From: Jatrophihabitans sp.
GTDB lineage: Bacteria > Actinomycetota > Actinomycetes > Mycobacteriales > Jatrophihabitantaceae
Reading direction: 5' to 3'
DNA length: 58,344 bases
Assembly (NCBI GenBank): GCA_025924515.1
Contig: JAICIE010000007.1
Location: forward strand, 1-58,344
Position numbers and translations under genes: made by a program. Shown in pieces: positions 6,038 through 36,378 of the stretch. Under the pieces are notes generated by a model. That model saw only the letters and a program-made list of their open reading frames with translations, made no database searches and was not told the DNA's origin. Each line of letters begins with the position of its first letter. The first letter of the stretch is position 1.

Positions 6038-6308
6038 TCAGTGGCTGACCCGGCCGCGGTAGGACACCAACCGCGGCCGGATCAGTCGGTCGGCGACCAT
6101 GCCGGTCGCCACGCTGTAGACGGCCTTGTGGCCGAAGTCCCACGCTTGTTCCCGCGCGGGCCAGTACGGCGGCGGTGCACCGACGCCGGACGCGTTCTCC
6201 AGCGCCTGCTCAGAGCTTCTCGGCCGCGGTCATCGCCGCGACGCCGGCAATCCCGGACACGGCGCCGCGCAGCGCGGCATCGCGCAGCAGCGGCAGTCGG
6301 TCAGTCAT
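6038..6308 (-). pseudogene. small membrane-associated protein gene broken by a one-base frameshift
   Basis: The ATG at 6308 shares ATGA with the stop of the upstream GNAT gene (6305-6307). It encodes MTDRLPLLRDAALRGAVSG plus 13 more residues and stops at 6210-6212. The frame shifted by one base continues without a stop as EQALENASGVGAPPPYWP to AWDFGHKAVYSVATGMVADRL and ends at 6038. The span is 271 nt (90 codons plus one base), so removing a single base near 6213 restores an 89-residue protein. The N-terminal part resembles a common actinobacterial small membrane protein (RGAVxGxxGxAAMTAAEKL). A real inactivation and a sequencing error are both possible. Confidence 0.55.
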
Positions 6309-6868: not shown

Positions 6869-6898
6869 CGCGCCACCCTACGGCGCTACCGTGCAGCA

Positions 6899-11300: not shown

Positions 11301-11782
11301 CTGGCACCTCCTGCCGCCGTCGCCCCGACCCGCAGCCGGGCCAGGGCGCGCGAGCACATGCTCTTGACCGTGCCGACCGGCATGCCGAGGGTGGCCGCGG
11401 TGTCCTGCTCGGACAGGTCGGCGTAATAGCGCAGGACGATGACGGCGCGCTCCTTGGGGGAGAGGTCAGCCAGCAACCTGCGCAGCTGGTCACGGTCGTC
11501 GGCCGGGCCGGCCTCGTCCTCACCGCGTATGTCCGGAAGCTCTTCGACCGGACGCTCACCCCGCCATTTGCGCCGGGACGAGTCGATCGCGGCGGTGACC
11601 AGCGCCTTGCGCGCGTAGGGGAGCGGTGCGTCGACGCGGTCCCACTTGAAATAAAGCCGGGTCAATGCCGTTTGCACGAGGTCCTCGCCGCGGTGGTGGT
11701 CTCCGGTCAACAGGCGGGCGGCATGCAGCAGCGTCGCGCCGTTCGCCTCGACGAATGCGCGGAAGGCCGCGTCGTCAGCCAC
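11297..11782 (-). CDS. ECF RNA polymerase sigma factor, SigE-like family
   Basis: 161 residues from GTG 11782 with an AAGGAC ribosome site. Region 2 (FRAFVEANGATLLHAARLLTGDHHRGEDLVQTALTRLYFKW) binds the -10 element and core polymerase. Region 4 (LRRLLADLSPKERAVIVLRYYADLSEQDTAATLGMPVGTVKSMCSRALARLR) is the -35-binding helix-turn-helix. Length and linker match the SigE-type actinobacterial ECF group. Translation is probably coupled to the downstream membrane protein by a 4-nt overlap. The start overlaps the end of the GNAT fragment by 8 nt, linking it to pheA. Its signal and regulon cannot be read from sequence. Confidence 0.92.
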   Translation of the reverse strand: MADDAAFRAFVEANGATLLHAARLLTGDHHRGEDLVQTALTRLYFKWDRVDAPLPYARKALVTAAIDSSRRKWRGERPVEELPDIRGEDEAGPADDRDQLRRLLADLSPKERAVIVLRYYADLSEQDTAATLGMPVGTVKSMCSRALARLRVGATAAGGAR

Positions 11783-21785: not shown

Positions 21786-24700
21786 CCGATTGTGTAGATG
21801 GCCACGCGGTCATGGCCGGTATCGATAGCGTAAAGCTGCAGCCCGGATCCCGACCTCCGGGCGATCAGCTTGGCCGGCGAGTACAAGGCCCCGCTGCCGG
21901 CCGGCTTCACCGCCTGCCGTAGTGCACCGGCGGGAGTGAAGTCGAGGAACCGGTTCCACGACGTGTCGCTGACCCAGACGTCACCGGTGGCATCGACGGT
22001 GACGCCCTGCGGGTCGTGCAGCGAGGAATCGGTGATCTTCTTGAGCACGGCGCCGGTGTTCACGTCGACCATCGTGATCGACTTGTTGCCGTCGTCGGCG
22101 ATGTACGCCACGGCGCCGACCACCGTCACGTCCTTGGGGTGGTTGAACCCGGTCGTGGTCCAGTCGTTTACCTCGCTGCCCTGCGCCGAACCGGGCGAGA
22201 TGCGCATGACCCTGTTGTTCCATGTGTCCGCGACGATCAGATCGCCGCCGGTCACCACTGTCACGGCGTCCGGCCAGTGGAACTTCAGTGGCCCGGTGCC
22301 CAAGCTCCCGATGCGGTGGCCGGCCTCCGTGCCGTTGCTGTTGTATTCCGTCAACCGGTTGTTCTTCGTGTCGGCCACCCAGATCATTCCGGTCGCCGGA
22401 TCTCGCGCCACGTCGTGCGGCCAGTTCATTCCGTCGACGGTGTCCCCGAACCCGCGACCTCCCCAACTGTTGGAGAATGTGCCGGTCGGGTCGAATACCT
22501 CGATGCGCTGGTTGGTGGTGTCCGCGACGTAAAGAGTGCCGTCGGAGGCCATCGACATTCCGAAAGGCTTGTTGAACCCACCGGTGGGTGGCCGGACGGT
22601 CCCCAGTTCGGTATTGGTTGAGCCGTCGGCGTTGAAGATGGTGATCTTGTCCGCCCACAGGTCGGCGGCATAGATCTTGGGGTTCGAACCGTCCGCGACG
22701 ACTGCGCGGCGCAACTGGAAGAACTGACCCGGTCCGGTTCCGGCCGAGCCGAAGGACGCGACATACGCGTGCGTCGGGTCGAACTCTTCCACCCGCGAGT
22801 TGTTCGAGTCGGCGACGTAGATGTTGTTCTGGTCGTCGAGGTCGACTCCGTACGGGCCGTTGAACTGGCCCGGACCGGATCCCAAGCTGCCGAAGGAGCC
22901 GAGCCAGGAACCGGTCGGCGAGAAGATCGCGATCCGGTGGTTGCGGAAGTCGGCGACGTAGATGTCGCCGTCGGAACTGGTGGCCGCGTCGCGGGGCTCG
23001 TTGAGCTGGCCGGCGCCGGAGCCGAATCCGCTGCCGACGGTTGCGAGAACCTGACCCGTCGACGGATCGTGAACGTGGACGACGTTGACGTTGATGGAGC
23101 CGTCGGTGCCGAGGATCACCGGGTTGCCGGTGCCGTCGACGCCGGCGCTGATGCCCATGATCGCGGTGTACTTCGTGGGCCAGGTCGTGATCCAGGAGCC
23201 GTCGGCGGCGCTGAGCACCTGGATCCGGTTGTTGCCGGTGTCGGCGACGTAGACCTTGCCGTTGTAATAGGCGACGTCACGCGGTTCGCTGAACTGGCCG
23301 TTCGCGTGACCCCAGGACAGGTGCTTCCATTTCAGGGACCCGTCTGGGTTGTAGGCCTGGACGCCGTCGTTACCGGTGTCGGCGAGGTAGACCGTGCCGT
23401 CGGGACCCACGTCGAGCCCCGAGGGGTACATGATCGCCCGGGCCGATCTGCCCACCTGGCCGGCGGCCGTCGGCGCGATGGCGCCCTGCAATGCTGCGCC
23501 GGAAGCGTCAGCCAGGACGTACGCGGAGCCGGCGGACGACGTGACGTGCACGCTGAACATCCCTGTGCTTCCGGTCGTCGCGGTCAGGGTGCACGGACGC
23601 GAACACGCCGGCGAGCTCACGACCGTGGTCCCCGACGGATTCACCAGCGATGCCGCGATCGCCGTACTGCTCGACTCGTCCCAGTCGACCGTGACCGACA
23701 GCCCCGCCTTGCTTCGCACCGGAACGGCCAGGTCGGCGGAGTGGGTCGTGTCGACCTGGCCGTTCGCCGTGACGTCACCGGTAGGCCGGGCTCCGATGTT
23801 GACCGTGGTCGACGAGCCGGAGGAAATCGCGAACGCCCGCGAATAACCGGTGTCCGAATCGATCGTGCTGTTGATGGAGGGCGCGGGGGCCGTTCCGGCG
23901 GGGCTGTACGAGTATCCGCTCGGCAGCGCCACTCGGACCCGATAGGAGGAGCCGGACGCAACGGTGGCCGACCACCGTCCGTCGGTCCCCGTCGCGGCCT
24001 GTTCGGCGACAACACCGGTCGAGGCATCGACGAGGTTGACGGTGACGGCCGGCAGACCCGCCTCGCTGTCGTCGACGCCGTTGCCGTTGGAATCGACCCA
24101 CAGCACGCCACCGACCGTTCCGGTGCTCGGCTGGCTGGGTTGGGCCACGCTGATGGTGAAGGCCGACGTACCGCTCTTGGCGGTCACCACGATCGTCCAC
24201 GTCCCGGTCACCGACACCGGATACGAGATGGCCTCCGGGTCGTTGCCGACAGCCCACTTGACCGCGGTGCCCGACGGGTCCTTGAGCCCGAGGTTCAATG
24301 CGGCCGCGGAGTTGCTCCAGTTCAGCACGACCGTCGCGGTCCCCGTCGAACTGAACACCACGGGATACTGCTTCGTCTTCGGAGCCGTGACGCCCGTGGA
24401 GTCGACCGTGCCGCAGAAATCGGCGCTGCAGGTCGTCGTCGCGGGAGCCGCCGTGTCTGCCACGGTCACCGTGTAGCCGGTGGACCCGCCGGACTTGGCG
24501 ACCACGACGATGGTCCAGTTGCCGGTCGTCGAAAGGTCCCAGGTGATCGCTTCGGGTCTGTGACCGGTGACCCATTTGACGGCGGTCCCGGACGGATCCT
24601 TCAGCCCGAGGTTCAGGGCGGCCGCGGTGTTCTGCCAGTCAAGCGTGATGGTGACCCATCCGGGCGTGGACACCGCGAGAGAGTGTGTCGAGGTCGTCTT

Positions 24701-24901
24701 GCCGGCGGAGTCGACCTGCCCGGTGAAGGTCGCGGCGTTGGTCGCTCCCGCCTGCGGGGCGGCGACGACTGTCGACGCCATGAGGATCGCTGCCAGGATC
24801 CCGACGGTCCACCGTCTGCCGGGCCCTCCGCTCCTCGTGCGTCTGATGCCGCCGGGGGCCACCTGACTTATGCGCTGGCGCCGAAGGGCACGATGCAGCA
24901 C
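21782..24901 (-). CDS. large secreted NHL-repeat protein with PPC-like and SdrD-B-like modules
   Basis: 1039 residues from GTG 24901, chosen because GGGAGG lies 6 nt upstream; an in-frame GTG at 24973 would add 24 residues. Signal helix WTVGILAAILMASTVVAAPQAGA. Two modules follow, nearly identical in signature to those of the next gene (LDWQNTAAALNLGLKDPSG, AVKWVTGHRPEAI; LNWSNSAAALNLGLKDPSG). Then come an SdrD-B/Cna-B-like domain (VGGVLWVDSNGNGVDDSEAG...), a third PPC-like module, and from about residue 450 to the end 9-10 NHL repeats of the form PxGVxVxxxGxxYVADTxNxRIxxF. The protein has no sortase signal or transmembrane C-terminus, so it is presumably released or held non-covalently. It heads the six-gene chained operon. 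Confidence 0.83.
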   Translation of the reverse strand: MLHRALRRQRISQVAPGGIRRTRSGGPGRRWTVGILAAILMASTVVAAPQAGATNAATFTGQVDSAGKTTSTHSLAVSTPGWVTITLDWQNTAAALNLGLKDPSGTAVKWVTGHRPEAITWDLSTTGNWTIVVVAKSGGSTGYTVTVADTAAPATTTCSADFCGTVDSTGVTAPKTKQYPVVFSSTGTATVVLNWSNSAAALNLGLKDPSGTAVKWAVGNDPEAISYPVSVTGTWTIVVTAKSGTSAFTISVAQPSQPSTGTVGGVLWVDSNGNGVDDSEAGLPAVTVNLVDASTGVVAEQAATGTDGRWSATVASGSSYRVRVALPSGYSYSPAGTAPAPSINSTIDSDTGYSRAFAISSGSSTTVNIGARPTGDVTANGQVDTTHSADLAVPVRSKAGLSVTVDWDESSSTAIAASLVNPSGTTVVSSPACSRPCTLTATTGSTGMFSVHVTSSAGSAYVLADASGAALQGAIAPTAAGQVGRSARAIMYPSGLDVGPDGTVYLADTGNDGVQAYNPDGSLKWKHLSWGHANGQFSEPRDVAYYNGKVYVADTGNNRIQVLSAADGSWITTWPTKYTAIMGISAGVDGTGNPVILGTDGSINVNVVHVHDPSTGQVLATVGSGFGSGAGQLNEPRDAATSSDGDIYVADFRNHRIAIFSPTGSWLGSFGSLGSGPGQFNGPYGVDLDDQNNIYVADSNNSRVEEFDPTHAYVASFGSAGTGPGQFFQLRRAVVADGSNPKIYAADLWADKITIFNADGSTNTELGTVRPPTGGFNKPFGMSMASDGTLYVADTTNQRIEVFDPTGTFSNSWGGRGFGDTVDGMNWPHDVARDPATGMIWVADTKNNRLTEYNSNGTEAGHRIGSLGTGPLKFHWPDAVTVVTGGDLIVADTWNNRVMRISPGSAQGSEVNDWTTTGFNHPKDVTVVGAVAYIADDGNKSITMVDVNTGAVLKKITDSSLHDPQGVTVDATGDVWVSDTSWNRFLDFTPAGALRQAVKPAGSGALYSPAKLIARRSGSGLQLYAIDTGHDRVAIYTIG

Positions 24902-25076
24902 GGAGCGCCTCCCATCCCTCCATCGTCCCGTCGTGCCACTTTCTGGCGCGGGACCGCATGCGACCGCGCTCACGCAGGCCGTGTAACGGAAGATACCTGA
25001 CCTTGAAGAAATAGGGGAATGCTAAGCAGTGGCGCACTCATAGGTCCCCACCGCTGCAACCGTGAGTAACCAGTCC

Positions 25077-26372
25077 TCACGATGTGCCACCGGCCGGCTG
25101 CGGCACGCGCACCGCGCGGCAGATGGAGAAGGGCCCGCTCGAGATCGTCGCTGCGGGCTGCAATCCGTAGCGAGGCAGCTCGCGGGCGAACGACGCCCAC
25201 TGTTCGGAGAACATCTGTAGAACGATGACGGCTTCTACCGACAGGTAGCTCCCGGCGGCTGCGAGCAGCGCTCGGTGCAGGCCGAGTCCGTCGTCATCCT
25301 CGCCGACGATGGTCGCCTCCGCCACTGCGCCGATCGCTGCGCGCCGCGCCGGTGGATAGAACGGGAGGTTCGCCACGAGGACATCGACGCGCCCGCGCGT
25401 CCATGCCGGCAACGGATCGAGCAGTGATCCCGGCAGGAATCTGGCATTGCCAAGTTCGGCCCGTCGCGCGGCGCGCCGTGCTGCCCGCACGGCTCGGCGA
25501 TCGGGATCCACCCCGACGACCTCGGCCCGCGGTCGGTGCCGGGCGATGCCTAATGCGATCGCGCCGTTGCCGGTCCCACAGTCGATCGCAACAGTGTGCT
25601 TGTGTCCGTCGAGCTCGGCGATGACCGTGTCGACCAGGGTCTCGGCGTCCGGAGTCGGCACGAAGCTGCCCGGAGGGGAGTAGGTCTCCACGCCGGCGAT
25701 GCGGACCGTGACCGGCGCCAGGCCGATCCTCAGATCTGCCTGCACTGCGGCCCGAATCCGGGTCGGCCTGATCCGGCGGGACATCGCCGAGAGCACCCGG
25801 GCCACGCTCGCGCGGCCGTCGCGGGAGGCGACGCCTGACCAACGGCCGTCGCCTGCTGCCGCCAGGGCTCGGTCGAGCGTCCCGGTGAGTCGGCACCCGG
25901 CGGCGGCCGCCCGCGCCTGCCGAACGACGGCCGCGTCGCTGCACCCGGCGACGAAGCGCGTGCGCGCGTCGCGGTCGGCCGCACCGGGACGCAGCGCCTG
26001 CACCGCCGCCGTGAGCAGGATGTCGGCGGGCGCCCGCCGCGGCGCGTCGGCCCACAGCCGCTTCTCGAGCGGCGCGAACCACCACGGCGGCAGGAGCCCG
26101 GGGCAGATCCGGCGCTGCAGCAGCAGTTGGGAGCCGTCCGCCCAGAGATAGCCGACCGCCGGCACCCTGCGCCACAACCCCGTGCCGCCGATGCGGTAGC
26201 GCCACGGCTCGCCGTCGAGGGCGCGGCCGACGGCCTTCCAGACCGACGACGGGACGAGAACCTCGATATTGACGCCGGCGTCGCCGACGGGCGAGCGGGC
26301 GGTCACCACGGCGCCGTCGGCGGCGAGCCGATCTGCGGCGAGCTCGGCTGCGTACTTCGCGTCGGGCCTCAC
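25077..26372 (-). CDS. HemK-like class I methyltransferase with an extra N-terminal domain
   Basis: 431 residues from GTG 26372. The C-terminal half (about 235-425) is a SAM-dependent methyltransferase: PTPDAETLVDTVIAELD resembles the HemK substrate loop, AIDCGTGNGAIALGIA is motif I, VVGVDPDRRAVRAARR is motif II. The N-P-P-Y catalytic motif appears as DVLVANLPFYPP, that is N-L-P-F, which leaves amide-nitrogen methylation uncertain. Residues 1-200 form a separate domain I do not recognise (SPVGDAGVNIEVLVPSSVWKAV, GGTGLWRRVPAVGYLWADGSQLLLQRR), vaguely nucleotidyltransferase-like. Substrate unknown. It lies between the NHL operon and the divergent glycosidase-like gene. Confidence 0.72.
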   Translation of the reverse strand: MRPDAKYAAELAADRLAADGAVVTARSPVGDAGVNIEVLVPSSVWKAVGRALDGEPWRYRIGGTGLWRRVPAVGYLWADGSQLLLQRRICPGLLPPWWFAPLEKRLWADAPRRAPADILLTAAVQALRPGAADRDARTRFVAGCSDAAVVRQARAAAAGCRLTGTLDRALAAAGDGRWSGVASRDGRASVARVLSAMSRRIRPTRIRAAVQADLRIGLAPVTVRIAGVETYSPPGSFVPTPDAETLVDTVIAELDGHKHTVAIDCGTGNGAIALGIARHRPRAEVVGVDPDRRAVRAARRAARRAELGNARFLPGSLLDPLPAWTRGRVDVLVANLPFYPPARRAAIGAVAEATIVGEDDDGLGLHRALLAAAGSYLSVEAVIVLQMFSEQWASFARELPRYGLQPAATISSGPFSICRAVRVPQPAGGTS

Positions 26373-26633
26373 AGGATCCCGCCGGCGGGCGCCGTTCGAC
26401 CTGTTCGCAGGGACAGCGCCGCCGCGGCGCCGTCGCAAAGAGGCGCGGAATCTCGGTCGGCGGGGCCCATGCCTTGGGACCGTATCGAAGGCCGGGGTTC
26501 GCAACCACTTGAATGCCGACGTCGGCGGGCCTTCAGGTGCTTGCGGGATCCGCCGATTAGCGACCGTGAAGGCGGAACGTCCGTCCCCCCGCTCGTCCGC
26601 CAGCGTTCGGTATTCGACATCGGAGGTACGTCG

Positions 26634-27866
26634 ATGCGCTTGTTTTGTCTTTCCCGCCCGGCAGTCAGAGTCGTCGCAGGCGCTCTCGCCGCTACGGCGC
26701 CATTGGCCACCATGTGGGTGGCGGATGGTCCGGTTGCCGCCGCGCAGGCGACGGCCGTCATGCCAGCCGCGCAGCAGACCTGGATGGACGACCAGGAGTC
26801 GCCGACGCACAGCTACACACAGGCCGAGGCGGTGGCTCAGGCGAAACGCTTCTCACTCATCAGCGCGCTGCCGAATACCTATGCGCCGTACGTATCGGCG
26901 ATGAAGGCGGCCAATCCCAACCTCAAACTCTTCGTGTACATGAACGGCACAATGGCCAACGGCGGTGAGGTCAAGTCTGCGCCCGAGGCGTGGTTCCTGC
27001 ACGACCGGTACGGCCACCGCTTGCAGAACCAGTGGCATCTGTTTCTGATGGACATCGCCAATCCCGCGTGGACCACGAACCGCATCGGCCAGTGTGCTGC
27101 TCTCGTGGCCCAGAGCCATTACGACGGGTGCTTCCTCGACAACCTGGGCAGCGGCACCTTCGGCACCGGAATGCTGTCCGGGACGCCGATCGACCCGGCG
27201 ACCGGGCTGGCGTACACGGCCGGCGCGTGGTTGCCCCGCGCGGCCAAGCTCGCCGATGCGGTGCGCGTCGGCACCGGCAAGCCCGTCTTCGGCAACGGCC
27301 TCGTCAACGGGCAGGCCTACTTCGCCGGAGGAGCCGCATCGTCGAGCACGTTGTTCAACGGCAGCCAGATCGCCTGTGCGGAGACGTTCGTGCGGACCGC
27401 ACGCATGGCTATCAACGAGTACCGTTCGCTCACCGCGTGGAAGCAGGACGTGGACATGCTTGCGGCCGCCGCGTCGCAAGGCCGCCGCGTCGCCGCACTC
27501 ACCAAGGTGTGGGCCAGCGGCACCACCCAACAGATCTACCGGTGGCACACGTTCGCGGTCGGGTCATTCCTGCTCGGCGCCGACGGCAACCAGTTCTTCG
27601 AGTTCAGCTCGTCACCGAAGGCCGCGCTGTCCGCAGGCGACTCCATCCTGCCTAATCTGACCCGGCTGGGCAGCCCGAGCGGCGGCTACACCGCCATGAA
27701 CGGCATCTACGCGCGCGCGTTCACCGGTGGCATGGTCCTGGTCAACCCGACCTCTCAGCCGGTCGTCGTGCCGCTGACCAGGACCTACACCGGAGCCTTG
27801 ACCGGCCAAACGGAGACCGGCTCCATCACCGTCGATCCCCACGGCGCGCGATTCTTGCTCGGCTGA
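26634..27866 (+). CDS. secreted glycosidase-like protein, paralog 1 of 3
   Basis: 410 residues from ATG 26634 with GGAGG 7 nt upstream. Signal peptide about 1-38. The mature part starts with the paralog signature W-M-DDQESPTHSYTQ and has LKLFVYMNGTMANGGE, SHYDGCFLDNLGSGTFG, GKPVFGNGLVNGQAYF and ALTKVWASGTTQQIYRWHTFAVGSFLLG. The strand-turn-acidic pattern (YDGCFLDN) resembles TIM-barrel hypothetical glycosidases of the GHL15/GH114 kind, and the last 70 residues look like the small beta domain that follows such barrels (GGMVLVNPTSQPVVVPL...). Enzymatic activity is inferred, not shown. It converges on paralog 2 with a 14-nt gap containing the palindrome GAAGGCCTTC. Confidence 0.7.
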   Translation: MRLFCLSRPAVRVVAGALAATAPLATMWVADGPVAAAQATAVMPAAQQTWMDDQESPTHSYTQAEAVAQAKRFSLISALPNTYAPYVSAMKAANPNLKLFVYMNGTMANGGEVKSAPEAWFLHDRYGHRLQNQWHLFLMDIANPAWTTNRIGQCAALVAQSHYDGCFLDNLGSGTFGTGMLSGTPIDPATGLAYTAGAWLPRAAKLADAVRVGTGKPVFGNGLVNGQAYFAGGAASSSTLFNGSQIACAETFVRTARMAINEYRSLTAWKQDVDMLAAAASQGRRVAALTKVWASGTTQQIYRWHTFAVGSFLLGADGNQFFEFSSSPKAALSAGDSILPNLTRLGSPSGGYTAMNGIYARAFTGGMVLVNPTSQPVVVPLTRTYTGALTGQTETGSITVDPHGARFLLG

Positions 27867-27880: not shown

Positions 27881-29140
27881 TCAGCCGAGCAGGAACCGCG
27901 CCGTGTGCCCCGCCAACGTGAGGGAGCCGCTCACGCTCGCTCCGCTGAGCGCGTCCTTATACGTCTTGGGCAAGGAGATCGTGAGCGAGCTGCCGGTGGG
28001 ATTGACCGCCACCAGGCCGCCGCTGAACGGCCGCCGGTAGACGCCGTTCAGCGATGAGTATCCCGCTGCGGGAGAACCCAGGCCGCCCAGCTTGGCGAGC
28101 AGCGAGTCACCGGCGGAGATGTCGGTCTTCGGCGAGGCGCTGAACTCGAAGGTCTGCAAGCCGTTCTCCGCGAGGAGGAATGACCCGACCGCGAACGCAT
28201 GCCAGTTGGCGATCTGGGTCTGCGTGCCGCTCACCCAAACCTTCGTGATTGCGGCGAAGCGCTTCCCGTTGGCGGCCGCCTGGGCCACCATGTTGACGTC
28301 CTGCTTCCAGGCCGTAAGGGAGCGGAAGGAGGTTATGCCGGACTTCGCGAGCCGGATGAAGGCCTCGGCGAGGGCTCCGTTCGTCGTCGTGGATATCACG
28401 CTCGACGGCGCGGTCGGATCGAAGTACGCCTGGCCGGTCGAGAGCCCGTTGCCGAAAGTGAACCTGTTGGTCTGTGTACGGATGGTGCCGGCGAGACTCG
28501 CCGTGCGACTCAACCAGTTCTTGGCAGTGTAGGGATAGCCGGTCGAAGGATCGATCGGCGTCGCCGACAATTGCCCGAACGTCCCGGTGCCGAGATTGTC
28601 GACGAAGCAGCCGTCGTAGTGGCTGATGGCGATGAGGTGACTGCATTTCGTGACGCGATTGCTCACCCATCCGGAGTTGCCCGGATTCATCAGGTACAGC
28701 TTCCAGGAGTTCATCAGGCGGTGCCCGTACCTGTCGTGAAGGAACCATGACTCGGGCAGTCCGGTCGCCTCGGCGCCGGTTGCGAACGTGCCGTTCATGT
28801 AGGCCAGCAGCCGGAGGCTCGGATTCGCGGTCTTCATCGCCGAGACGTACGACGAGTACGTACTCGTCAGCGCGCTGATGATGGAGAAGCGCTTGGCCTG
28901 AGTGACCGCCTCGGTCGCGGTGTAGTTGTGCGTGGGCGATTCTTGATCGTCGAGCCACATGAGGCGAGTCGGAGACGAGGACGTGGTCGTCTGCGTCGTC
29001 GAGGTCGCGGCACTGGCGACCGCTTGGGCCGGCGAGCTGGTGAGGGACAGCAGGGTGCAGCTTGCCAGTGCCCCGGCCAGGGCTGCTGTGATTGTTGCCT
29101 TGCCGCCGGCGATGCGACGCAGAGCAGGAAGCTTCGACAT
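27881..29140 (-). CDS. secreted glycosidase-like protein, paralog 2 of 3
   Basis: 419 residues from ATG 29140 with GGAAGG 6 nt upstream; a longer open frame reaches 29230 but would precede the signal sequence. Signal peptide about 12-45 (ITAALAGALASCTLLSLTSSPAQA) and a Thr/Ser linker. The same core as the neighbour: W-L-DDQESPTHNYT, LRLLAYMNGTFATGAE, SHYDGCFVDNLGTGTFG, AITKVWVSGTQTQIANWHAFAVGSFLL. By eye about half of the positions are identical to paralog 1. All acidic residues of the DDQE and YDG.DN motifs are kept, so it is probably active if the family is enzymatic. Confidence 0.7.
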   Translation of the reverse strand: MSKLPALRRIAGGKATITAALAGALASCTLLSLTSSPAQAVASAATSTTQTTTSSSPTRLMWLDDQESPTHNYTATEAVTQAKRFSIISALTSTYSSYVSAMKTANPSLRLLAYMNGTFATGAEATGLPESWFLHDRYGHRLMNSWKLYLMNPGNSGWVSNRVTKCSHLIAISHYDGCFVDNLGTGTFGQLSATPIDPSTGYPYTAKNWLSRTASLAGTIRTQTNRFTFGNGLSTGQAYFDPTAPSSVISTTTNGALAEAFIRLAKSGITSFRSLTAWKQDVNMVAQAAANGKRFAAITKVWVSGTQTQIANWHAFAVGSFLLAENGLQTFEFSASPKTDISAGDSLLAKLGGLGSPAAGYSSLNGVYRRPFSGGLVAVNPTGSSLTISLPKTYKDALSGASVSGSLTLAGHTARFLLG

Positions 29141-29460
29141 GAGTGCCTTCCAGTGCTGGAGTACGGGGGCGAGCCCGCTCGAGACTTGGCGGCTCACGTC
29201 GCGGAGCGGTGCGGATACGCCTGACGCCACTGCCGCGGGATGATCACGCGGAGCCGTCTTCGGGGGGTTCTCGATTATGACGTCGTCCAGATGCGGATTA
29301 ATAGCACATGCTGGGCGGCTCGGGGGTCGTAGTGAGGCAGCTCCTAGAAGGTTGTGAGGGAAGCAAAATTATCTCGAAAGGGCACGTTACCGCAGCCCGC
29401 CTCTCCCGGCATCTTTTCCCATACGACATCACATCCGGGTTAAGCCGGCCGGTGCACCAT
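29141..29460. other. 320-nt intergenic stretch, probable promoter region of paralog 2
   Basis: No coding sequence I would accept. The stretch has AT-richer patches (GGATTAATAGCAC at 29295-29307, AAAATTATCTCG at 29365-29376, ATACGACATC near 29421) in an otherwise GC-rich background. It should hold the promoter of the leftward glycosidase-like gene and the end of the RiPP operon transcript. No strong hairpin terminator was found downstream of the nucleotidyltransferase stop at 29461. Confidence 0.4.
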
Positions 29461-30654
29461 TTATCGCTGCGCGGCGACCTTGGAGAAGTACTCGCCTCGT
29501 TCGCGCGTGCCTCCACCAGGAGCCGTGACCGGCTCGGACGGGATCCTGGCGGCCCTGGGCGACCAAGAGCGCCTGAGCACCGACGATCCGAGGGCAGCCG
29601 CGTGGCGCGCGTGCAGCAGTCTGCGCAAACGGGGGGAGAGCCCTAGCCCGACGTTGCGGTACAGCGGGGTCGTGAGTGCGATCGATGTGAAGGGGTGGAC
29701 CGTCGACCCGAAGGACGCCGCTGCGTCGCCTACGGCCACGGCAGCCAAGATCGAAGAAGGCGCCAACGCGTCGAGCACCCCGCGGGGAACCGGCGTGGCC
29801 GCGATCCTTCGGGCTCGGTCGAGCATCACCGCGGTGGCCAGGCGGGCACGCCAGGCCCGGGCCACGTCCGCGACGTCCTCCCACTCCGGGCGCAAGGTGC
29901 GCAGCGCACGGTCGATATCGACCAGCCAGCCGAGCCGATCCCCGCCGCTGAGCGACGCGTGCAGGCACAGGTGGACGACCGTGGCCGTCGGCGCGAGGGT
30001 CGGAACATCCAGCCCGGCCACCGGGGTCGACGTCCGGTCCTTGAAGAGCGCGCAGGTGCTGATCGGGAAGGCGCGGCGCTGGTCGTGCCGGTTGAGCAGG
30101 CTCCAGTGCAGGTCGCAAAGCGTGCCGTCCGGCAGGACGAGATGCACCTGGCCGCGCATCTGGTCGCTGATCAGCCGCCAGTTCGCGTCCAGCAGCTGGC
30201 AGCCGGCACCCTCCATCGCGCTCACGGCGTCGGCGAAGGCCTCCGGCGGCACGAGGACGTCGATGTCGGCGTAGGTACGCAGGTCCGTGCGGGAGTACAT
30301 GGCCCCGATGACAGGCCCCTTGAAGGAGAGCCAGTCGATCTGCGCCCGCTCGAGAACGTCGCCGACGAAACCCAGTGCCTGCGCGGCGTGCATTCCACCA
30401 ACGGCGCCGGCGACGTATCTGTCACTCAGGGCAGCCTCGACGTCGGGTGGAAGATTGGTCAGACCGTGCAGGCTGAGAAAGACCGCGGGAAGGACGCGTT
30501 GATACTCCGCGACGGCCACCAGCGGCGTGGCGTCCCGGCCGCGCAGGAGGTCGTCGAGTTCGGCAATCGGCCTGTTCCAGTCGTGCTCGATGATGCACTG
30601 CCGCAGCAGTCGGCGGACAGCGCTCCGGCCGAGCGGTATCTCGGCCGTCACCAT
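29461..30654 (-). CDS. RiPP-cluster nucleotidyltransferase (NTP_transf_5-like)
   Basis: 397 residues from ATG 30654, overlapping the B2 protease gene by 7 nt. The fold signature is IDWLSFKGPVIGAMYSRTDLRTYADIDVLVPPEAFADAV with the D-I-D metal pair, then GQVHLVLPDGTLCDLHWSLLNRH. This matches the uncharacterised nucleotidyltransferase family that recurs in lasso-peptide clusters together with an HPr-kinase homolog. In those clusters its job is not settled; adding a nucleotide or extending a phosphate on the peptide is a reasonable guess. It is the last gene of the minus-strand biosynthetic operon. Confidence 0.8.
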   Translation of the reverse strand: MVTAEIPLGRSAVRRLLRQCIIEHDWNRPIAELDDLLRGRDATPLVAVAEYQRVLPAVFLSLHGLTNLPPDVEAALSDRYVAGAVGGMHAAQALGFVGDVLERAQIDWLSFKGPVIGAMYSRTDLRTYADIDVLVPPEAFADAVSAMEGAGCQLLDANWRLISDQMRGQVHLVLPDGTLCDLHWSLLNRHDQRRAFPISTCALFKDRTSTPVAGLDVPTLAPTATVVHLCLHASLSGGDRLGWLVDIDRALRTLRPEWEDVADVARAWRARLATAVMLDRARRIAATPVPRGVLDALAPSSILAAVAVGDAAASFGSTVHPFTSIALTTPLYRNVGLGLSPRLRRLLHARHAAALGSSVLRRSWSPRAARIPSEPVTAPGGGTRERGEYFSKVAAQR

Positions 30655-31055
30655 CCGTACCTTGCAAGTTCTTTGTGCCCGTTGCGCCCGGGAGGGGGGC
30701 CGACGTCGACGCCCTGCACCTCCACCCAGGCGTGCGCTTCCTGATTGGTCGGGCGCTCCGGCAGGCCGATCACGATGTCGGCCCTGACGCCGGACTGTGC
30801 GAGGAGCCGATAGAGGACGAGCGAGCGCATCAGGCACGCGGGGCGCCAGCTACCGATACGCAGCCGACGCCAGACGAAGCGTCCGGTTGCCCGGGGCGCG
30901 AGATTCGGGCCGCTGTGTCTCGGCACATCTGCCAACCGCTGGACGGCGACCGGGAGGGGGTGCCTCGACAGGGCGAGGACGGCTAGGAGATATGCGTGCC
31001 ACGCCCGGGCGAACATCACGAGCCGGCCGGGCGCGGAACGAGACCGCAGGTTCAT
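30648..31055 (-). CDS. lasso peptide B2-type leader protease (transglutaminase fold)
   Basis: 135 residues from ATG 31055, overlapping the RRE gene stop (ATGA). Cysteine-protease layout of lasso B2 proteins: Cys74 in WRPACLMRSLVLYRLL, His108 in EAHAWVEVQG, with Asp117 as possible third residue. The GLP....EAHAWVEV spacing is diagnostic. It would cut the leader from the precursor once the upstream RRE protein has delivered it. The start is fixed by overlap and length; B2 proteins are typically 130-150 residues. The usual B1-B2 split seen in actinobacteria is kept. Confidence 0.88.
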   Translation of the reverse strand: MNLRSRSAPGRLVMFARAWHAYLLAVLALSRHPLPVAVQRLADVPRHSGPNLAPRATGRFVWRRLRIGSWRPACLMRSLVLYRLLAQSGVRADIVIGLPERPTNQEAHAWVEVQGVDVGPPPGRNGHKELARYGW

Positions 31056-31351
31056 TCCCCGGTCTCGGGCGTGACCGTCACGAGATTGCGCGCGGCGAGG
31101 GCCTCGACGAATTCGACGACGTCGCGTGACACGTCCGGCGGGCAGTCCTCGAAGGCACCGCGCACACGGTCGACGAGCTGTTCCACGGTGGCACCGCCGT
31201 TGCCGAGGGAGTCCCAGAGCACCGACGCGACCGAATCCAGACCGAAGTACTCCGCGGTATCAAGATCGAGGACGATCGCTCCCTGATCCCCCGCGAGCTG
31301 TTGTACGACGGCCCGGGGATTGCGCCGGACGCGGTTCGTCATATCGACCAC
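31052..31351 (-). CDS. PqqD-like RiPP recognition protein (lasso B1)
   Basis: 99 residues from GTG 31351, chosen because AGAGGA lies 9 nt upstream; an in-frame ATG at 31342 gives 96. PqqD/RRE winged-helix pattern: VRRNPRAVVQQLAGDQGAIVLDLDTAEYFGLDSVASVLWDSLGNGGATVEQLVDRV. The GAIVLDLDTAEYFGLD strand pair is where the leader docks in homologs. It presents the precursor leader to the B2 protease and cyclase. Fourteen nucleotides separate it from the permease gene upstream; it overlaps the protease downstream. Confidence 0.88.
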   Translation of the reverse strand: MVDMTNRVRRNPRAVVQQLAGDQGAIVLDLDTAEYFGLDSVASVLWDSLGNGGATVEQLVDRVRGAFEDCPPDVSRDVVEFVEALAARNLVTVTPETGE

Positions 31352-31365
31352 AACAATTATTCCTC

Positions 31366-32187
31366 TCAGTACAGACCCAATGTGCCACGGCGCTGTTCCC
31401 GCGCCACCGCGAGCCGGAAGACGTAGAGGCCGGCAGCGAGAAACACTGCCGCCATCGGTGTGAGCTTCACGAAGGCGTCGAGAAGTACCGACCAGCCGGC
31501 CCCGCCCAGGAGGCATTCCCGCTCACCCTCGAGTGTGATGGCGATCGGGTTGTACCGGAGGAACGCGAGCCACGAAGGCAGCAGCGAGAGCGGAAAGAAC
31601 GCGCCGGAGCTCAACGTGAAGATTGTGACACCGATACCCGCCACGGTTCCGCCGCGGCGGAAGGTCAACGTGCCCGCGGCGCTCATGAGGCCGAGACCCC
31701 AGACGATGCCGACGAAGAACACGAGCAGCACGAAACCCGGCAGCATGCCCGTCCAGTAAAAGTCGGCTCCGAACACGAGGTGCACCAGAATGAGGAAGAT
31801 GCCGATGCGGAGGGGCACGTACAGCGCTTCGTACATCGCCGACCCGAGCTGCACGATGGTCGCTGAGGTCGGCGAAATCATCAGGACTTCGATAGTTCCC
31901 ATCAGCTGCTCGGTACGCATTGCCGTCACCAGCCTGACGACCCCCACCTGCAGGAAGCTCGTCACGGCGATGCCGGTGGTCACGAACTCCACGTAGGACA
32001 CATGCTGCCCGGCGTACGACGGAAGAGAGTTGGATGAAACCAGCCGGCCGACGAAGTAGAACGTGACGAGCTGGAACAACAGCCCGGTGAAGTCGGTGAC
32101 GAACGCCAGTCGGTAACTCAGCGCCATCCTGAAATCCCGGCGGACGAACGCGCCGAGCTTCGCGATCTCTGCGACGGCCGCCGTCAC
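31366..32187 (-). CDS. ABC-2 type transporter permease of the RiPP cluster
   Basis: 273 residues from GTG 32187, overlapping the ATPase stop (GTGA). Six predicted transmembrane segments: LAFVTDFTGLLFQLVTFYFVG; a helix at VEFVTTGIAVTSFLQVGVVRL; the MGTIEVLMISPTS coupling stretch common to ABC-2 permeases; LRIGIFLILVHLVFG; MLPGFVLLVFFVGIVWGLGLM; and a last one near VKLTPMAAVFLAAGLYVF. It should form the membrane channel with the ATPase to export the mature peptide and give self-protection. Confidence 0.87.
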   Translation of the reverse strand: MTAAVAEIAKLGAFVRRDFRMALSYRLAFVTDFTGLLFQLVTFYFVGRLVSSNSLPSYAGQHVSYVEFVTTGIAVTSFLQVGVVRLVTAMRTEQLMGTIEVLMISPTSATIVQLGSAMYEALYVPLRIGIFLILVHLVFGADFYWTGMLPGFVLLVFFVGIVWGLGLMSAAGTLTFRRGGTVAGIGVTIFTLSSGAFFPLSLLPSWLAFLRYNPIAITLEGERECLLGGAGWSVLLDAFVKLTPMAAVFLAAGLYVFRLAVAREQRRGTLGLY

Positions 32188-33182
32188 TGGTCCGGCGCTT
32201 CCACGATGCTCAGGAACGCCGACTCGATTCCGGAGCGCTCCTCGCGGCAGGCGAGGACGGCGACGCCGCACTGCGTCAGATCGCAGATGACGCGTCCGAG
32301 GACGGCGTCGGGGCCCAGTTCCACGAGGACGTGCTCCGCATCGACGGGGACGACCGTCACTCCTCGCACCAACCGGGCCGCTGCGTCGGCGAGCGGGACG
32401 TCGCCCAGCGGACGCTCCGGACGGAGCCGGAGCACGTAGCGCTCCTTCGGCTGTTGCGCCAGCAGCTCCGGGACCGTGCCGCTGAACAGCACCCGGCCCT
32501 TGTTCAGGACGATGACACGGTCGGCGAAGGCGCGGATCTCGTCCAACCGCTGCGTCGCCCACAACACCGCGGCGGATCGGCCAGCGACCGCGGACACGAG
32601 CTCCTGAACCCGCCGCGCGGCTGCGGGGTCGAGGTCGTGCGTCGACTCGTCGACGAGCAGGAGCGCCGGCTGCCCGAGAAGGGCGCGGGCGACCGAGAGG
32701 CGTTTCTGCATGCCGTGCGAGTAGGTCGACACCGGCTTGCCGGCGACGTCGCTGAGGTCGACGTCCGAAAGGCACTGGCGGACGCGCTGCTTGGCGACCC
32801 GGACCGGCATCCCCAGCAACCGGGCGAAGAACAACAGGTTCTCGAAGCCCGACAGCCGCATATAGAAGGTGCGGTCGCCCGACGGCACCAAGGCCACCCG
32901 GTCCCGACCGTGCCGCGCACCGAGGCGGGCCACCGGGCGGCCCAGAACCCGCACGGTTCCGGACGTCGGTTGGGTCAGCCCGATGACGGTTCGCAGCATC
33001 GTCGTCTTACCCGCCCCGTTGGGGCCGAGTACGGCGCAGATCTGGCCCGCCTCGACCACCACGTCGACCTCGCTGAGGGCGCAGGTGCTGCCGAAGGTGC
33101 GTGACACCTGTTTCAGTTCGAGCACGGGAGCTGCGGATACGGCGGTCTGCGGCGACCTCTCCGCGGCCATGGAGTCGATCAT
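32184..33182 (-). CDS. ABC transporter ATP-binding protein of the RiPP cluster
   Basis: 332 residues from ATG 33182, overlapping the cyclase stop (ATGA). Walker A GPNGAGKT (53-60), signature YSHGMQKR (154-161; Ser-His-Gly replaces the common Ser-Gly-Gly), Walker B LLLVDES (174-180) and the D-loop HDLDPAAA. The C-terminal 90 residues are the accessory domain often found on drug and peptide exporters (DrrA-like). It energises the permease that follows. Separate half-transporter genes distinguish this cluster from those with a fused LasD-type exporter. Confidence 0.9.
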   Translation of the reverse strand: MIDSMAAERSPQTAVSAAPVLELKQVSRTFGSTCALSEVDVVVEAGQICAVLGPNGAGKTTMLRTVIGLTQPTSGTVRVLGRPVARLGARHGRDRVALVPSGDRTFYMRLSGFENLLFFARLLGMPVRVAKQRVRQCLSDVDLSDVAGKPVSTYSHGMQKRLSVARALLGQPALLLVDESTHDLDPAAARRVQELVSAVAGRSAAVLWATQRLDEIRAFADRVIVLNKGRVLFSGTVPELLAQQPKERYVLRLRPERPLGDVPLADAAARLVRGVTVVPVDAEHVLVELGPDAVLGRVICDLTQCGVAVLACREERSGIESAFLSIVEAPDQ

Positions 33183-34969
33183 CGGGCCACCGTGAGGAAC
33201 GCGTGCGCTGCAGCCAGGTCCTTCGCCCACATGTACCCCGGGACGTCGAGCGCCCGTGTGTCCAGGTCCACCGCGAGCGCACCGTAGTCGATCCCCGCGA
33301 GTCTGAACGGCGGGTCGATCAGCCACCGCCGTAGCTCTTGGTAGTCGGCACCGCCGATGACCGCGTCGCCGAAGGATGTTTTGTCCGCCCGGTCCACGAT
33401 GGCATCCGGCAGCCGACCGCGAAGCAGCAGCCGGGCTACGCCCTTGCGCCGGCCGTCCGGGAACTTGACCTCGGCGGGGAGCGCCAGGAACCACTCCCAG
33501 AGATCGACGTCGGCCCAGGGTCGCCGGGTGGTGATCCCGGTGGCTGCCTGCAGCACATCGTCAGCCTCGATGCTGAGCCCCGGACCCTCGAAGGCGCCGA
33601 GCTGCCAGGCCACCCAGCTGCGTCCCGGCGCCTCGATGTTCCGGGCGCGCAGCTCGCGCAGCCGGCCGGCGTCCAACCAGCGCACGGGAGCGTCGCCGGC
33701 GACCCATCCGCGGCTGCAGGCCAGTGCTGCGGCGCGTTGCGGAACCAGGGCGGACACCGCCTGTCGGGCGATCCGCGACAGGCGGACTCCGCGCCTGCGC
33801 TGCAGAGCGAGGTTGGACGCGACCGCGCGCCAGCGTCGCTGCCGCAGCAGGTGCGGCACGAGCCCTCCGCGCATGTCGGCGACGAACTCGGCGATCTCAC
33901 CGGTCAGCAGCGTGCGATAGCCCTTGCTGGCGGCGAGGGCGTACTGCGCTTCGAGCTCCCGGAACGCGATCGCGGGGACTGGGCCGTCGAACAGCTTCGT
34001 CCAGTCGCTGAGCGATCCGAGCCCCGAGACCTCGTGCGGGACCGTTTCCAGGTCCAGGTGGAGCTCGTCCGCGACGAGCTGCACCCAGGGCGTCTCGTCG
34101 ACGGCGGGGTACGCCGGATACGTGGTCGTCATCGCAGGCAGGGGCCGGCCGGTCATGCGGCGGTAGGGTTGGGCGGCATACGCAGCGACGGCGGGGGAGT
34201 CCAGCCCGCCGCTGAGCGACACCACGTCGGCGCCGGTCAGGACGCGGCTGCACGCCTGCCGCATGAGGCTGTCGAACTCCTCCTGCAGATCGGCCGTGGA
34301 GCGCGAACAACCGGTCTCGAGCAGGCGCTCCGGCAGCCAGTACCGCTCGGTCCGGATCGTGTCGCCGGTGGTGGCGAGCACCGTCGCTTTCGGCAGCCGA
34401 GACACGCCGGAGACCGCCGAGGGCGTCTCATCGTCGTACTGGCCCCACAGGATCTGCTCCACGACGTCCCGGTCCGCGACGATGTCGAGCCCGGCGCCTG
34501 CGGCGACCTGCTTGGCCTCGGAAGCGACCCAGGTGAGCCCGTCGGCGTGCCGGAAGGAGCACGCTGCGAAGCCGAGATGGTCCCGCCACGCCCACATCCG
34601 GGTGCCGTCCGTGACGACGGCCAGGTAGCGCCCGCGCAGGTGTCGCGGCAGTCGCTCGCCGTGCCGGGCGAACGCTTCCGCCAGCAGCACGTCGAGGTCC
34701 GCGTCAGCCGGCAGGCCGATATCGCGGGCGATCTCCGCGCGGTTGTCCAATCGGCCTTCGAAGGCGACCGCGAAGCGGCCATGGGAGCCGACAGCTGCGC
34801 AGTTCGGGTCGTCGGGGCGGCTGGCGATGCCGAGAGTGCACTGCTCGCGCTCGACCAGCGTCGCCGCCGTGCCGCGGTGAGGAGCGGCCGTGAGAGCTGA
34901 CTCGACCTGGCGCCGCGGTGGTCGTCCTCCGGTGCGGGATGACCGACACACCGCCACCAGTGACGCCAT
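33179..34969 (-). CDS. asparagine synthetase-like lasso cyclase
   Basis: 596 residues. The N-terminal 200 residues keep the class II glutaminase fold (GRLDNRAEIARDIG, DHLGFAACSFRHADGLTWVASEAKQV) but start MASLV instead of Met-Cys, so the glutamine-hydrolysing Cys2 is missing, as usual in lasso cyclases. The synthetase domain has the PP-loop VSLSGGLDS (252-257). Such enzymes adenylate an Asp or Glu side chain in the core and let the core N-terminal amine attack it, forming the macrolactam. It is the first large gene after the precursor and hairpin, and overlaps the ATPase gene. Confidence 0.88.
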   Translation of the reverse strand: MASLVAVCRSSRTGGRPPRRQVESALTAAPHRGTAATLVEREQCTLGIASRPDDPNCAAVGSHGRFAVAFEGRLDNRAEIARDIGLPADADLDVLLAEAFARHGERLPRHLRGRYLAVVTDGTRMWAWRDHLGFAACSFRHADGLTWVASEAKQVAAGAGLDIVADRDVVEQILWGQYDDETPSAVSGVSRLPKATVLATTGDTIRTERYWLPERLLETGCSRSTADLQEEFDSLMRQACSRVLTGADVVSLSGGLDSPAVAAYAAQPYRRMTGRPLPAMTTTYPAYPAVDETPWVQLVADELHLDLETVPHEVSGLGSLSDWTKLFDGPVPAIAFRELEAQYALAASKGYRTLLTGEIAEFVADMRGGLVPHLLRQRRWRAVASNLALQRRRGVRLSRIARQAVSALVPQRAAALACSRGWVAGDAPVRWLDAGRLRELRARNIEAPGRSWVAWQLGAFEGPGLSIEADDVLQAATGITTRRPWADVDLWEWFLALPAEVKFPDGRRKGVARLLLRGRLPDAIVDRADKTSFGDAVIGGADYQELRRWLIDPPFRLAGIDYGALAVDLDTRALDVPGYMWAKDLAAAHAFLTVAR

Positions 34970-35021
34970 CAGCCCCCTCCCTGGGAGTCAAGTCGATTGA
35001 CATGCGGAGGGCCGCAAATAG

Positions 35022-35060
35022 ATCTGCGGCTGGTGTGAGGATCTCACACCAGCCGCAGAT
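35022..35060 (-). terminator. 18-bp perfect hairpin between precursor and cyclase genes
   Basis: ATCTGCGGCTGGTGTGAG at 35022-35039 is perfectly complementary to 35043-35060, with a 3-nt loop. It starts 19 nt after the precursor stop and ends about 52 nt before the cyclase start, in the direction of transcription. No T-run follows, as in many actinobacterial terminators. Likely role: partial termination or 3' stabilisation so that precursor mRNA exceeds enzyme mRNA. Confidence 0.8.
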
Positions 35061-35079
35061 GCGCGCGTCGATCGGAGTC

Positions 35080-35226
35080 TCAGGACCCGGCTGCCGGGTG
35101 TGAGTACTCGTTGTACTTGTCGAGCTGGTACGTCGTGTTCGTGCTCTTCGTGCCCTTGCCAGGCGTCTGGAACGTGTGCCCAGCGATCGAACCGAAGTCC
35201 TTGATCGTCGGCTTGCTGTACCTCAT
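35080..35226 (-). CDS. lasso-type RiPP precursor peptide
   Basis: 48 codons from ATG 35226 (GGGAGGGGG about 5 nt upstream) to TGA 35080-35082. The leader begins MRYSKPTIKDFGSIAGHTF: Tyr3-x-x-Pro6 and Thr18 as penultimate residue give exactly the Y-to-cleavage length (17 residues) I recall for lariatin. In that register the core would be residues 20-48, starting Gln-Thr-Pro-Gly and lacking Asp/Glu at positions 7-9. An alternative cut after Thr26-Lys27 gives a 21-residue core starting Ser28 with Asp36 at position 9. The C-terminal half is polar (TTYQLDKYNEYSH) and the last residue is Ser48, a possible target of the neighbouring HPr-kinase homolog. The gene was identified from its position before a cyclase/RRE/protease set; the product is unproven. 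Confidence 0.82.
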   Translation of the reverse strand: MRYSKPTIKDFGSIAGHTFQTPGKGTKSTNTTYQLDKYNEYSHPAAGS

Positions 35227-35268
35227 GGGTTCCCCCTCCCTTCTGACCTTGAGGCGACGGTATCTCGG

Positions 35269-35297
35269 AGACTAGGACGGCCCGGCAGCCCGCGCAA
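35269..35297 (-). promoter_or_regulatory. candidate sigma-70-type promoter of the precursor gene
   Basis: On the minus strand TTGCGC (35292-35297) and TAGTCT (35269-35274) are separated by 17 bp, close to a TTGACA/TAnnnT promoter. The -10 lies about 42 nt before the precursor ATG, leaving a short leader with the GGGAGGGGG ribosome site. A palindrome GATATATC at 35330-35337 sits upstream, between the two divergent genes, and might serve regulation. Prediction from pattern only. Confidence 0.45.
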
Positions 35298-35451
35298 TCC
35301 CGACTGCCATCGGGGTACGGAGAGTCACCGATATATCACACTCAGCTATCCCGGGTCCTAAGGAGTGGCCCAGCACTGCGTCGTTCGGTTTGCCGGGCCC
35401 AGCCCCGCCGGTTACCGTCCGGGTCGGAGGTTGGCGAGAGGAGGGGCTCGC

Positions 35452-36378
35452 ATGATGGCGACTCGTCTCGCCCGCGGCGCCTGTTTCGGCTATGAGCCGA
35501 CCGGGCTGGCGCTGCAGCAGTTGCGTCCCGGGACGGGAGCTGCGCTATCCGTCGCGGAGTGCGCGCCGCAGGACGTTCCCGCGGTGCCTCCCGACGCACA
35601 CCCGATCTCGGTATGGCGGCCTCGTCCCGACAATCCGTTCAGCGCGCGGTTGGTCCGGCAGGACGGGATCTTCCTGTTCAGCGTGGACGGGATGGGCGTT
35701 TACGTCATCGATCCGGCGGCCGCAACGATCGGCGTCCCACCCGATGTGGACCCGTACCGGCGCGAGGCTCGAATGTGGGGTGTCCCCGCCGTCCTCTGCT
35801 TCGACCGTCGCGGCGATGTGCCGCTGCACGCGGCGGCTGTCGACGTAAACGGAGCGGCGGTCCTGCTGGTCGGTCCGAGCCATCACGGGAAATCCACCCT
35901 GGCGGCTGCATGCGTCGCCGGCGGCCATCGGCTGCTCGCGGAGGACACCACCTGTGTCGGCCTGGAGCCCGCGCCGTTCGTTCTTCCCGGGCCGCCGACC
36001 CTACGCCTGCGTCCTGACGTCTTCGCGGCCCTGGAGGTACCCGGCGCACGAGCCGTGCGGCGCGACGCCGACCGGGTACACCTCCTACTCGACGAGAACT
36101 CCCGCGGATCCGCGACCGCGGTTCCGCTGGCCGGCGTAGTGTTCCTGCACGTCGGCGCAGACGACGACATAAGGGTCGAACCCGTCGAATCGCGAGCAGC
36201 CCTCAGCAACCTGTGGGTGACGAGCTACAACATTCCGGACGATGAACACCGCGGGGTGCGCTTCGCGCAGCTGGCCCTGATGGCCGCCGTCACTCCGATA
36301 TGGAACCTGACGCGGCCGCTCGTTTTTCCGCGACTGCCCGACGTGGTGGCGGTGATCGAGAAGATCGCATCGGGATAA
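35452..36378 (+). CDS. HPr kinase-like protein, probable RiPP tailoring kinase
   Basis: 308 residues from ATG 35452 after GAGAGGAGGGG. The C-terminal half is the HPr kinase / PEPCK-like fold: PLHAAAVDVNGAAVLLVGPSHHGKSTLAAA with P-loop G141-PSHHGKS148, and GGHRLLAEDTTCV with Glu164-Asp165 where HPr kinases have Asp-Asp. No HPr or PTS gene is nearby. In the paeninodin-type lasso clusters a homolog phosphorylates the C-terminal Ser of the precursor, and this precursor ends in Ser. Divergent from the precursor with about 225 bp between starts; probably a separate transcript. Confidence 0.82.
   Translation: MMATRLARGACFGYEPTGLALQQLRPGTGAALSVAECAPQDVPAVPPDAHPISVWRPRPDNPFSARLVRQDGIFLFSVDGMGVYVIDPAAATIGVPPDVDPYRREARMWGVPAVLCFDRRGDVPLHAAAVDVNGAAVLLVGPSHHGKSTLAAACVAGGHRLLAEDTTCVGLEPAPFVLPGPPTLRLRPDVFAALEVPGARAVRRDADRVHLLLDENSRGSATAVPLAGVVFLHVGADDDIRVEPVESRAALSNLWVTSYNIPDDEHRGVRFAQLALMAAVTPIWNLTRPLVFPRLPDVVAVIEKIASG

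Follow-up and report, generated by a model that had tools for sequence, protein, structure and literature searches.

Lasso cyclases are known for closing a strict ring of 7–9 residues, and an Asp or Glu acceptor at core position 7, 8 or 9 defines a lasso peptide. In the paeninodin and pseudomycoidin systems (PadeK, PsmK, PsmN), the precursor (A), the recognition and leader-processing proteins (B1, B2) and the cyclase (C) are accompanied by an HprK-like kinase, a PF14907-type nucleotidyltransferase and ABC export, and the clusters are associated with capsular polysaccharide loci. The kinase modifies the C-terminal Ser of paeninodin, and the PsmN nucleotidyltransferase adds hexoses to the phosphate of pseudomycoidin (PMC9266682). 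HprK-like kinases also target Ser3 in the core of Bsf, a lasso peptide of Bradymonas (PMC10368454), and S3 of the linear polyphosphorylated peptides (LPPs; Nat Commun 2026, PMC13381572). Here we describe a lasso-type locus for a ribosomally synthesised and post-translationally modified peptide (RiPP) in a 58,344-nucleotide stretch of Jatrophihabitans sp. (the window; assembly GCA_025924515.1, contig JAICIE010000007.1, positions 1 to 58,344). It consists of eight minus-strand parts at 35226-29461 and a divergent plus-strand kinase, all of which were confirmed.

The window cluster shares the full gene complement of paeninodin and pseudomycoidin, but differs from them in its 29-residue predicted core, the lack of Asp or Glu at positions 7–9, a DKFGEYS motif, a cyclase from a separate clade and its place in the Actinomycetota. 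Across its family, moreover, a terminal Ser is not universal, and a DrrAB-type ABC-2 transporter stands in place of the fused ABC exporter. With LPPs it has in common the kinase, nucleotidyltransferase, RiPP recognition element (RRE), long core, Y-type leader motif and polymer loci; LPPs, however, belong to Bacillota, are phosphorylated at Ser3 and use a signal-peptidase-like protein, LppS, with no cyclase or B2 (PMC13381572), so that the presence of B2 and C places the window cluster outside a group recognised by an SpI-like leader peptidase and no cyclase. Bsf is similar in its HprK-like kinase, internal core Ser target and assistance by B1, but has a Gly1-Asp8 ring, Ile(-2), a Ser3 site and a core of ordinary length (PMC10368454). 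Because B1, B2 and C are present together with a lasso-format leader, a lasso-derived RiPP is very likely. Sequence shows directly which genes are present and that they are conserved, how the leader is spaced, the shared motif and the missing acid; from these we infer a chemistry and function in which the locus rather probably makes a secreted, phosphorylated RiPP, one of a small actinobacterial family with long cores, no ring acid at positions 7–9 and lasso-derived machinery.

Recurrence of the gene set

An alignment and motif scan for the kinase (K) over 84,980 species genomes returned seven loci, all in metagenome-assembled genomes (MAGs), after a single-protein kinase scan of genome contigs had given no match. 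The named family records are likewise all MAGs; the genome of the window comprises 253 contigs at 83% completeness. At least seven further actinobacterial genomes carry the gene set, with full or near-full complements at loci L035, L037, L048, L058 together with L034 (two contigs of genome G638), L072, L073 and L074. A, C, the ABC ATPase and permease (D1, D2), B1, B2 and K recur together in varying order and strand, and the nucleotidyltransferase (N) is present in most; BLAST found no N homologue in L074, whose precursor core is short, and in L037 N may lie beyond the contig end. Since homologues of the same genes cluster in differing orders in distant actinobacterial genomes, a chance assembly of genes is ruled out. 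The split ABC-2 pair, D1-D2, occurs in every full or near-full cluster, and is thus a trait of the family, not the less common feature that an earlier sequence-only reading had taken it for. D2 homologues are about 48–50% identical in L035, L037, L048, L058, L072, L073 and L074, and the idea that D2 is unrelated to the cluster was rejected on this conservation. Only the A-C pair of the family is present at L006 and L007, with a conventional kinase-lasso cluster elsewhere on the contig.

The distribution is sparse. Of 395 genomes in the class, 3 have the cyclase; the figures are 4 of 397 for the phylum and 4 of 399 for the class to which L048, a Thermoleophilia MAG, belongs. The sequence-only reading had named the lack of the precursor at this site in related genomes as grounds for its refutation. 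Among 101 genomes searched, the window's own and 100 near relatives, the cyclase was confined to the window's genome (0 of 100 relatives), which in a narrow sense fulfils that refutation and marks the cluster as rare and patchy rather than false.

Loci L036 and L038 (genomes G606 and G626) keep B1 and K, with B2 and N also retained in L036. The L036 precursor is a broken remnant only, while L038 has a short precursor (...GSIARHAF followed by EGEENVTNDWWHGLF) and a kinase in which the His is replaced by Asn. As no cyclase was found in these genomes at the E-value searched and the kinase His of L038 is lost, both clusters are probably decayed, and they were set aside from the family comparison.

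Precursors, cut site and ring

Ten homologous precursors, the window's included, were aligned and share the leader pattern Y-x2-P-x-[IVL]-x3-GS[IV]-x2-[HL]-T-[FL], with a Tyr-to-Thr distance of 15 residues in all ten. Lasso leaders studied experimentally carry YxxPxL at -17 to -12 with a Y(-17) to T(-2) spacing, and are cut at a fixed distance from the RRE motif (PMC10368454). Because the spacing in the family equals the reported one, B2 is predicted to cut after HT[FL] (T18-F19 in the window). At L007 and L006, the A-C pair has the same leader format as the conventional kinase-lasso cluster on that contig, and a shared B2 would therefore cut both after T-L. The predicted cut leaves cores of 25–41 residues. 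The number of Cys residues following it is even in nine of the ten precursors; L073 has three, and Cys parity was accordingly rejected as proof of the cut.

Counted from the predicted T(-2) cut, Asp or Glu is absent from core positions 7–9 in the window, where the first acid stands at position 17, and in eight of its nine homologues (nine of ten precursors in all). By the same counting, an acid does occupy 7–9 in five of the six controls, which are precursors found in lasso-type clusters; the five are the second precursor of L007, two in L065, and those of L042 and L077. The description of the locus as a complete lasso cluster is supported for its lasso-type B1, B2 and C genes, while its precursor, on the predicted cut, departs from the ring rule. 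All ten precursors carry a motif near the C-terminus, [D/E]x3-4ExS, with the consensus DKFGEYS followed by Cys or His; the window version is DKYNEYS, its Ser being residue 42. A shuffle test over eight distinct cores gave a joint probability of about 1e-14, which is a guide only because the motif was chosen post hoc. The ExS Ser is invariant in the ten, and each has a Lys 6–10 residues ahead of the motif acid; six precursors (the window's and five others) end in Ser, the other four in Gly, Arg, Pro or Asp. In the L072/L073 pair, the final 20 codons of the compared stretch, VHK...SCGS (VHKDHIVCETDKFGEYSCGS), differ at eight places, and every one of these changes is synonymous.

With cleavage by B2 at the site that the spacing predicts, the ring would have to be large, be made via a Lys side chain, or be absent. 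Several points weigh against the favoured long-core reading. The cut site is itself placed by spacing, and L037 has Asp7. The sixth control, L082, which is the second cluster of the window's own genome, has Asp at position 10, so the 7–9 rule is imperfect even among conventional-looking clusters. A later or second cut at Lys27 would leave STNTTYQLDKYNEYSHPAAGS, with Ser1 and Asp9 in ordinary lasso geometry, and the family cyclases might not cyclise at all.

Under the Lys27 cut, the leader would be longer and the product an ordinary class II lasso peptide of paeninodin type, in which the core Ser28-Ser48 forms a 9-residue Ser1-Asp9 ring and a 12-residue tail, and the C-terminal Ser is phosphorylated and glycosylated. 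This alternative, which we consider unlikely though deserving serious weight, agrees with the lasso-type cyclase, B1 and B2, with the C-terminal Ser of the window precursor, and with the Gly or Ser found nine back from the conserved acid in six of ten precursors (window, L035, L037, L048, L006 and L007). By that count, however, position 1 becomes Asp in L058 and Lys in L072, L073 and L074, and the Cys number turns odd in L048, L006 and L007. The distance from the RRE motif to the cut, fixed in known leaders (PMC10368454), would vary by 16 residues over the family, and the conserved T(-2) of the HT motif would go unused.

A ring closed through the side chain of the conserved Lys, giving a Lys-Asp isopeptide of about 7–11 residues with a free N-terminal extension, appears improbable. 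The Lys occupies its place before the motif acid in every precursor and is the sole preceding Lys in seven (L035, L037, L058, L006, L007, L073 and L074), and L072 and L073 are most constrained from that residue onward; but its spacing to the acid varies by four residues, and it may serve solubility or recognition. To our knowledge, a Lys nucleophile is without precedent in lasso cyclases.

Cyclase, tailoring and a proposed pathway

The nine family cyclases form one clade with 100/100 support and a long stem, and all comparators (lasso-type cyclases of Actinomycetota, Bacillota, Pseudomonadota and Halobacteria, and asparagine synthases) fall outside it; some branches of the tree are long, and the order of its deep nodes is uncertain. 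The window's C has no N-terminal Cys for a glutaminase, Cys2 being missing throughout the family, and its SGGLDS ATP motif is intact. In the LDGxxGD region, the Gly-Asp of the controls (Ala-Asp in one) is Ala-Glu in all nine family cyclases. Against the NF033535 lasso-cyclase profile (cut-off 525 bits), C scored 109 bits and four homologues 100–136, although the controls scored 761, 451 and 224, two of the three thus also falling below the cut-off, which makes the profile a weak discriminator alone. A plasmid tblastn search with C returned only homologues of at most 28% identity, and these served as controls. The AF2 model of C (pLDDT 87.7) resembles TsnB9, beta-lactam synthetase and AsnB, which are its nearest solved folds but act on small-molecule substrates and are only 14–18% identical to it. 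C is about equally close to Asn-synthetase profiles and to lasso cyclases, which would suit a linear phosphorylated and glycosylated product like the Bacillota LPPs, with C given another task such as coupling the conserved acid to another molecule (an amino sugar, for example). LPPs also share with the family their long core, their place among polymer genes and the combination of kinase, RRE and nucleotidyltransferase (PMC13381572); yet LPP core clusters lack the C and B2 conserved in the actinobacterial family, simple amidation is unlikely because C is without the glutaminase Cys, and we hold such a product to be very doubtful.

In nine kinase homologues the His, the P-loop GK and ED are invariant. 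Of the catalytic His-Lys-Asp-Asp, the His, Lys and second Asp are conserved; every one of the nine aligned kinases has Glu in place of the first Asp. The AF2 model of the kinase (pLDDT 87.4) matches PEPCK and HprK in Foldseek, and alignments indicate that the catalytic motifs of K, B2 and N are intact. The sequence-only reading had proposed tailoring of the C-terminal residue by analogy with paeninodin; the window precursor does end in Ser, but such tailoring is uncertain because a terminal Ser is limited to six precursors whereas the ExS Ser is in all ten. The latter is the better candidate phosphosite on conservation, and the C-terminal Ser on analogy. Given that PsmN adds hexoses to phosphate, a phospho-sugar on the product is a reasonable guess; the nucleotidyltransferase of LPPs, LppN, was inactive in the host used, and its authors suggest partners beyond the core cluster (PMC13381572).

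In the pathway that we propose, B1 would bind the YxxPxI leader, K would phosphorylate a core Ser, either residue 42 of DKYNEYS or the C-terminal Ser48, and B1 and B2 would cleave after T18-F19. C would then adenylate the conserved acid (Asp36 or Glu40) and may link it through an amide to the N-terminus freed by cleavage, so that a large ring results (17 residues in the window if Asp36 is used, and 14–30 across the family), or alternatively to the Lys ahead of the acid. N would add a nucleotidyl or sugar group onto the phosphate, and D1-D2 would export the product, which may act at or with the surface polymer. In its fullest form, which we put forward tentatively and at less than even likelihood, this proposal describes a distinct RiPP family in which B1, B2 and C close a non-lasso ring (a 14–30-residue N-terminal macrolactam or a Lys-Asp isopeptide) by the DKFGEYS motif, the Ser receives a phosphate and then a sugar or nucleotidyl group, and a DrrAB-like ABC-2 transporter exports a component or partner of a surface polymer.

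Gene order, polymer setting and related clusters

The eight-part cluster and divergent HPr-kinase homologue of the sequence-only reading were borne out by open reading frames (ORFs), Pfam and NCBIfam (Table 1). Every cluster protein except the precursor received a clear assignment, with PF13471, PF05402, PF00733 and PF14907 all matched and the kinase match weak but consistently HprK-like (PF07475, 28.0 bits, just below the curated 33.3). B2 scored 55.9 bits against NF033537, the NCBIfam 'lasso B2' model (cut-off 33). Genes overlap by 4 nt at the C/D1, D1/D2, B1/B2 and B2/N junctions, the D2/B1 junction is a short gap and A and C are 110 nt apart; the ORF list holds no extra gene between the parts, and the GC content gives no sign of foreign origin. 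A scan of the window with Rfam gave no match, and a sigma-70 scan gave no promoter, a result that is uninformative because the host is a GC-rich actinobacterium. The hairpin between A and C may be an attenuator or a stabiliser keeping A in excess. Fold excess was also seen 3' of A in L048 (z -2.9) and not in L072 or L058, and the hairpin was thus rejected as a conserved element.

Table 1 Features of the RiPP locus and its flank in the window.
Feature	Position	Strand	Description and basis
Precursor A	35226-35080	-	48-residue ORF; leader MRYSKPTIKDFGSIAGHTF, residues 1-19 (35226-35170); predicted core QTPGKGTKSTNTTYQLDKYNEYSHPAAGS, residues 20-48 (35169-35083)
RNA hairpin between A and C	35060-35022	-	18 bp; RNA fold of 34970-35079, z = -4.86 versus shuffles
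C	34969-33179	-	Asn-synthetase-like ATP-dependent cyclase, 596 residues; PF00733 1e-24 and PF13537
D1	33182-32184	-	ABC transporter ATPase, DrrA-like; PF00005 9e-29; best NCBIfam drrA 5.7e-57, under curated cut-off
D2	32187-31366	-	ABC-2 type permease, DrrB-like; PF01061 1.9e-10
B1	31342-31052	-	Discrete PqqD-type RRE; PF05402 4.5e-13; alignment with lasso B1 proteins
B2	31055-30648	-	Leader peptidase, Cys-His-Asp motifs (RPACL, EAHAW, GVDVGP); PF13471 1.5e-14; alignment
N	30651-29461	-	Nucleotidyltransferase of PsmN/LppN kind, D-x-D motif (YADIDVLV); PF14907 3e-37; alignment
K	about 35452-36378	+	HprK/PEPCK-fold kinase, divergent; PF07475 1.8e-6; AF2 model and Foldseek
GHL15 paralogues	26127-27866; 27881-29230	+; -	Two, convergent; PF14885, hypothetical glycosyl hydrolase family; directly adjoin cluster
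Surface and polymer genes	16484-24973	-	Two large NHL-repeat / SdrD_B-type surface proteins, then sulfotransferase and MurJ-like flippase

The flanks of the locus encode glycosyltransferases, a MurJ-like flippase, a sulfotransferase, NHL-repeat proteins and two GHL15 proteins, supporting the earlier view of a RiPP cluster with lasso-type B1, B2 and C, kinase and nucleotidyltransferase in a surface-polymer region. Polymer genes also lie beside L035, L048, L058, L072 and L073, and beside L007 (Bac_transf). In Bacilli, paeninodin and LPP clusters are often inside capsular polysaccharide loci, where their role is unknown (PMC13381572); the actinobacterial clusters broaden this association.

L082 (G000 C12:36000-50080, at 3220-9727), the other kinase-lasso locus in the genome of the window, encodes N, B1, a fused ABC exporter, B2, a short cyclase and K, with a possible precursor (leader MQEETYQAPAIQELASLHELTL, core QPTKHGRKSDGFGVSPVKVS) that ends in Ser; it follows ORFs that read like glycosyltransferases. 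Conventional kinase-lasso clusters of Actinomycetia are found at L065 (G290 C23, 7114-15442), which has two precursors in one locus, and at L007 (15091-18545); their cyclases are about 405–410 residues long and without the GATase-like domain, and their precursors end in GLS or GMS. An Antarctobacter plasmid (L077, 1952-9005) carries a lasso cluster with a nucleotidyltransferase, ABC protein, C, kinase-like ORF, PqqD and B2 beside glycosyltransferases, and a precursor candidate at 6747-6929 (leader MRKTYVTPSLEIFGEVAVLTA, core SGSQQIQTETTTGSGCSGNPNRNRC). At L040 (G660, 6371-11444), a kinase, nucleotidyltransferase, ABC exporter, RRE and a precursor with a 42-residue core (MKKAYTTPSLTVHGSVEKITL followed by APNGD...) stand beside an O-antigen ligase, with no C or B2 detected; it looks like an LPP-type cluster outside Bacillota, the phylum to which LPPs are reported as restricted (PMC13381572). 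Literature coverage was incomplete, and within it we found no description of an ABC-2 exporter in a lasso cluster and no clear description of a Thermoleophilia lasso peptide.

If the substrates of this cyclase clade truly lack an acid at positions 7–9, then either lasso cyclases have a wider closing range or a second processing step is hidden. The precursors give specific mass predictions: for the window, 3125.47 for the cyclic, unphosphorylated long core and 3205.44 with one phosphate, against 2328.03 and 2408.00 for the shorter core that starts at Ser28. The family would also extend the range of phosphorylated, lasso-related RiPPs of polymer loci beyond Bacillota to Actinomycetota, so that comparison of the two could test what they do at the cell surface.

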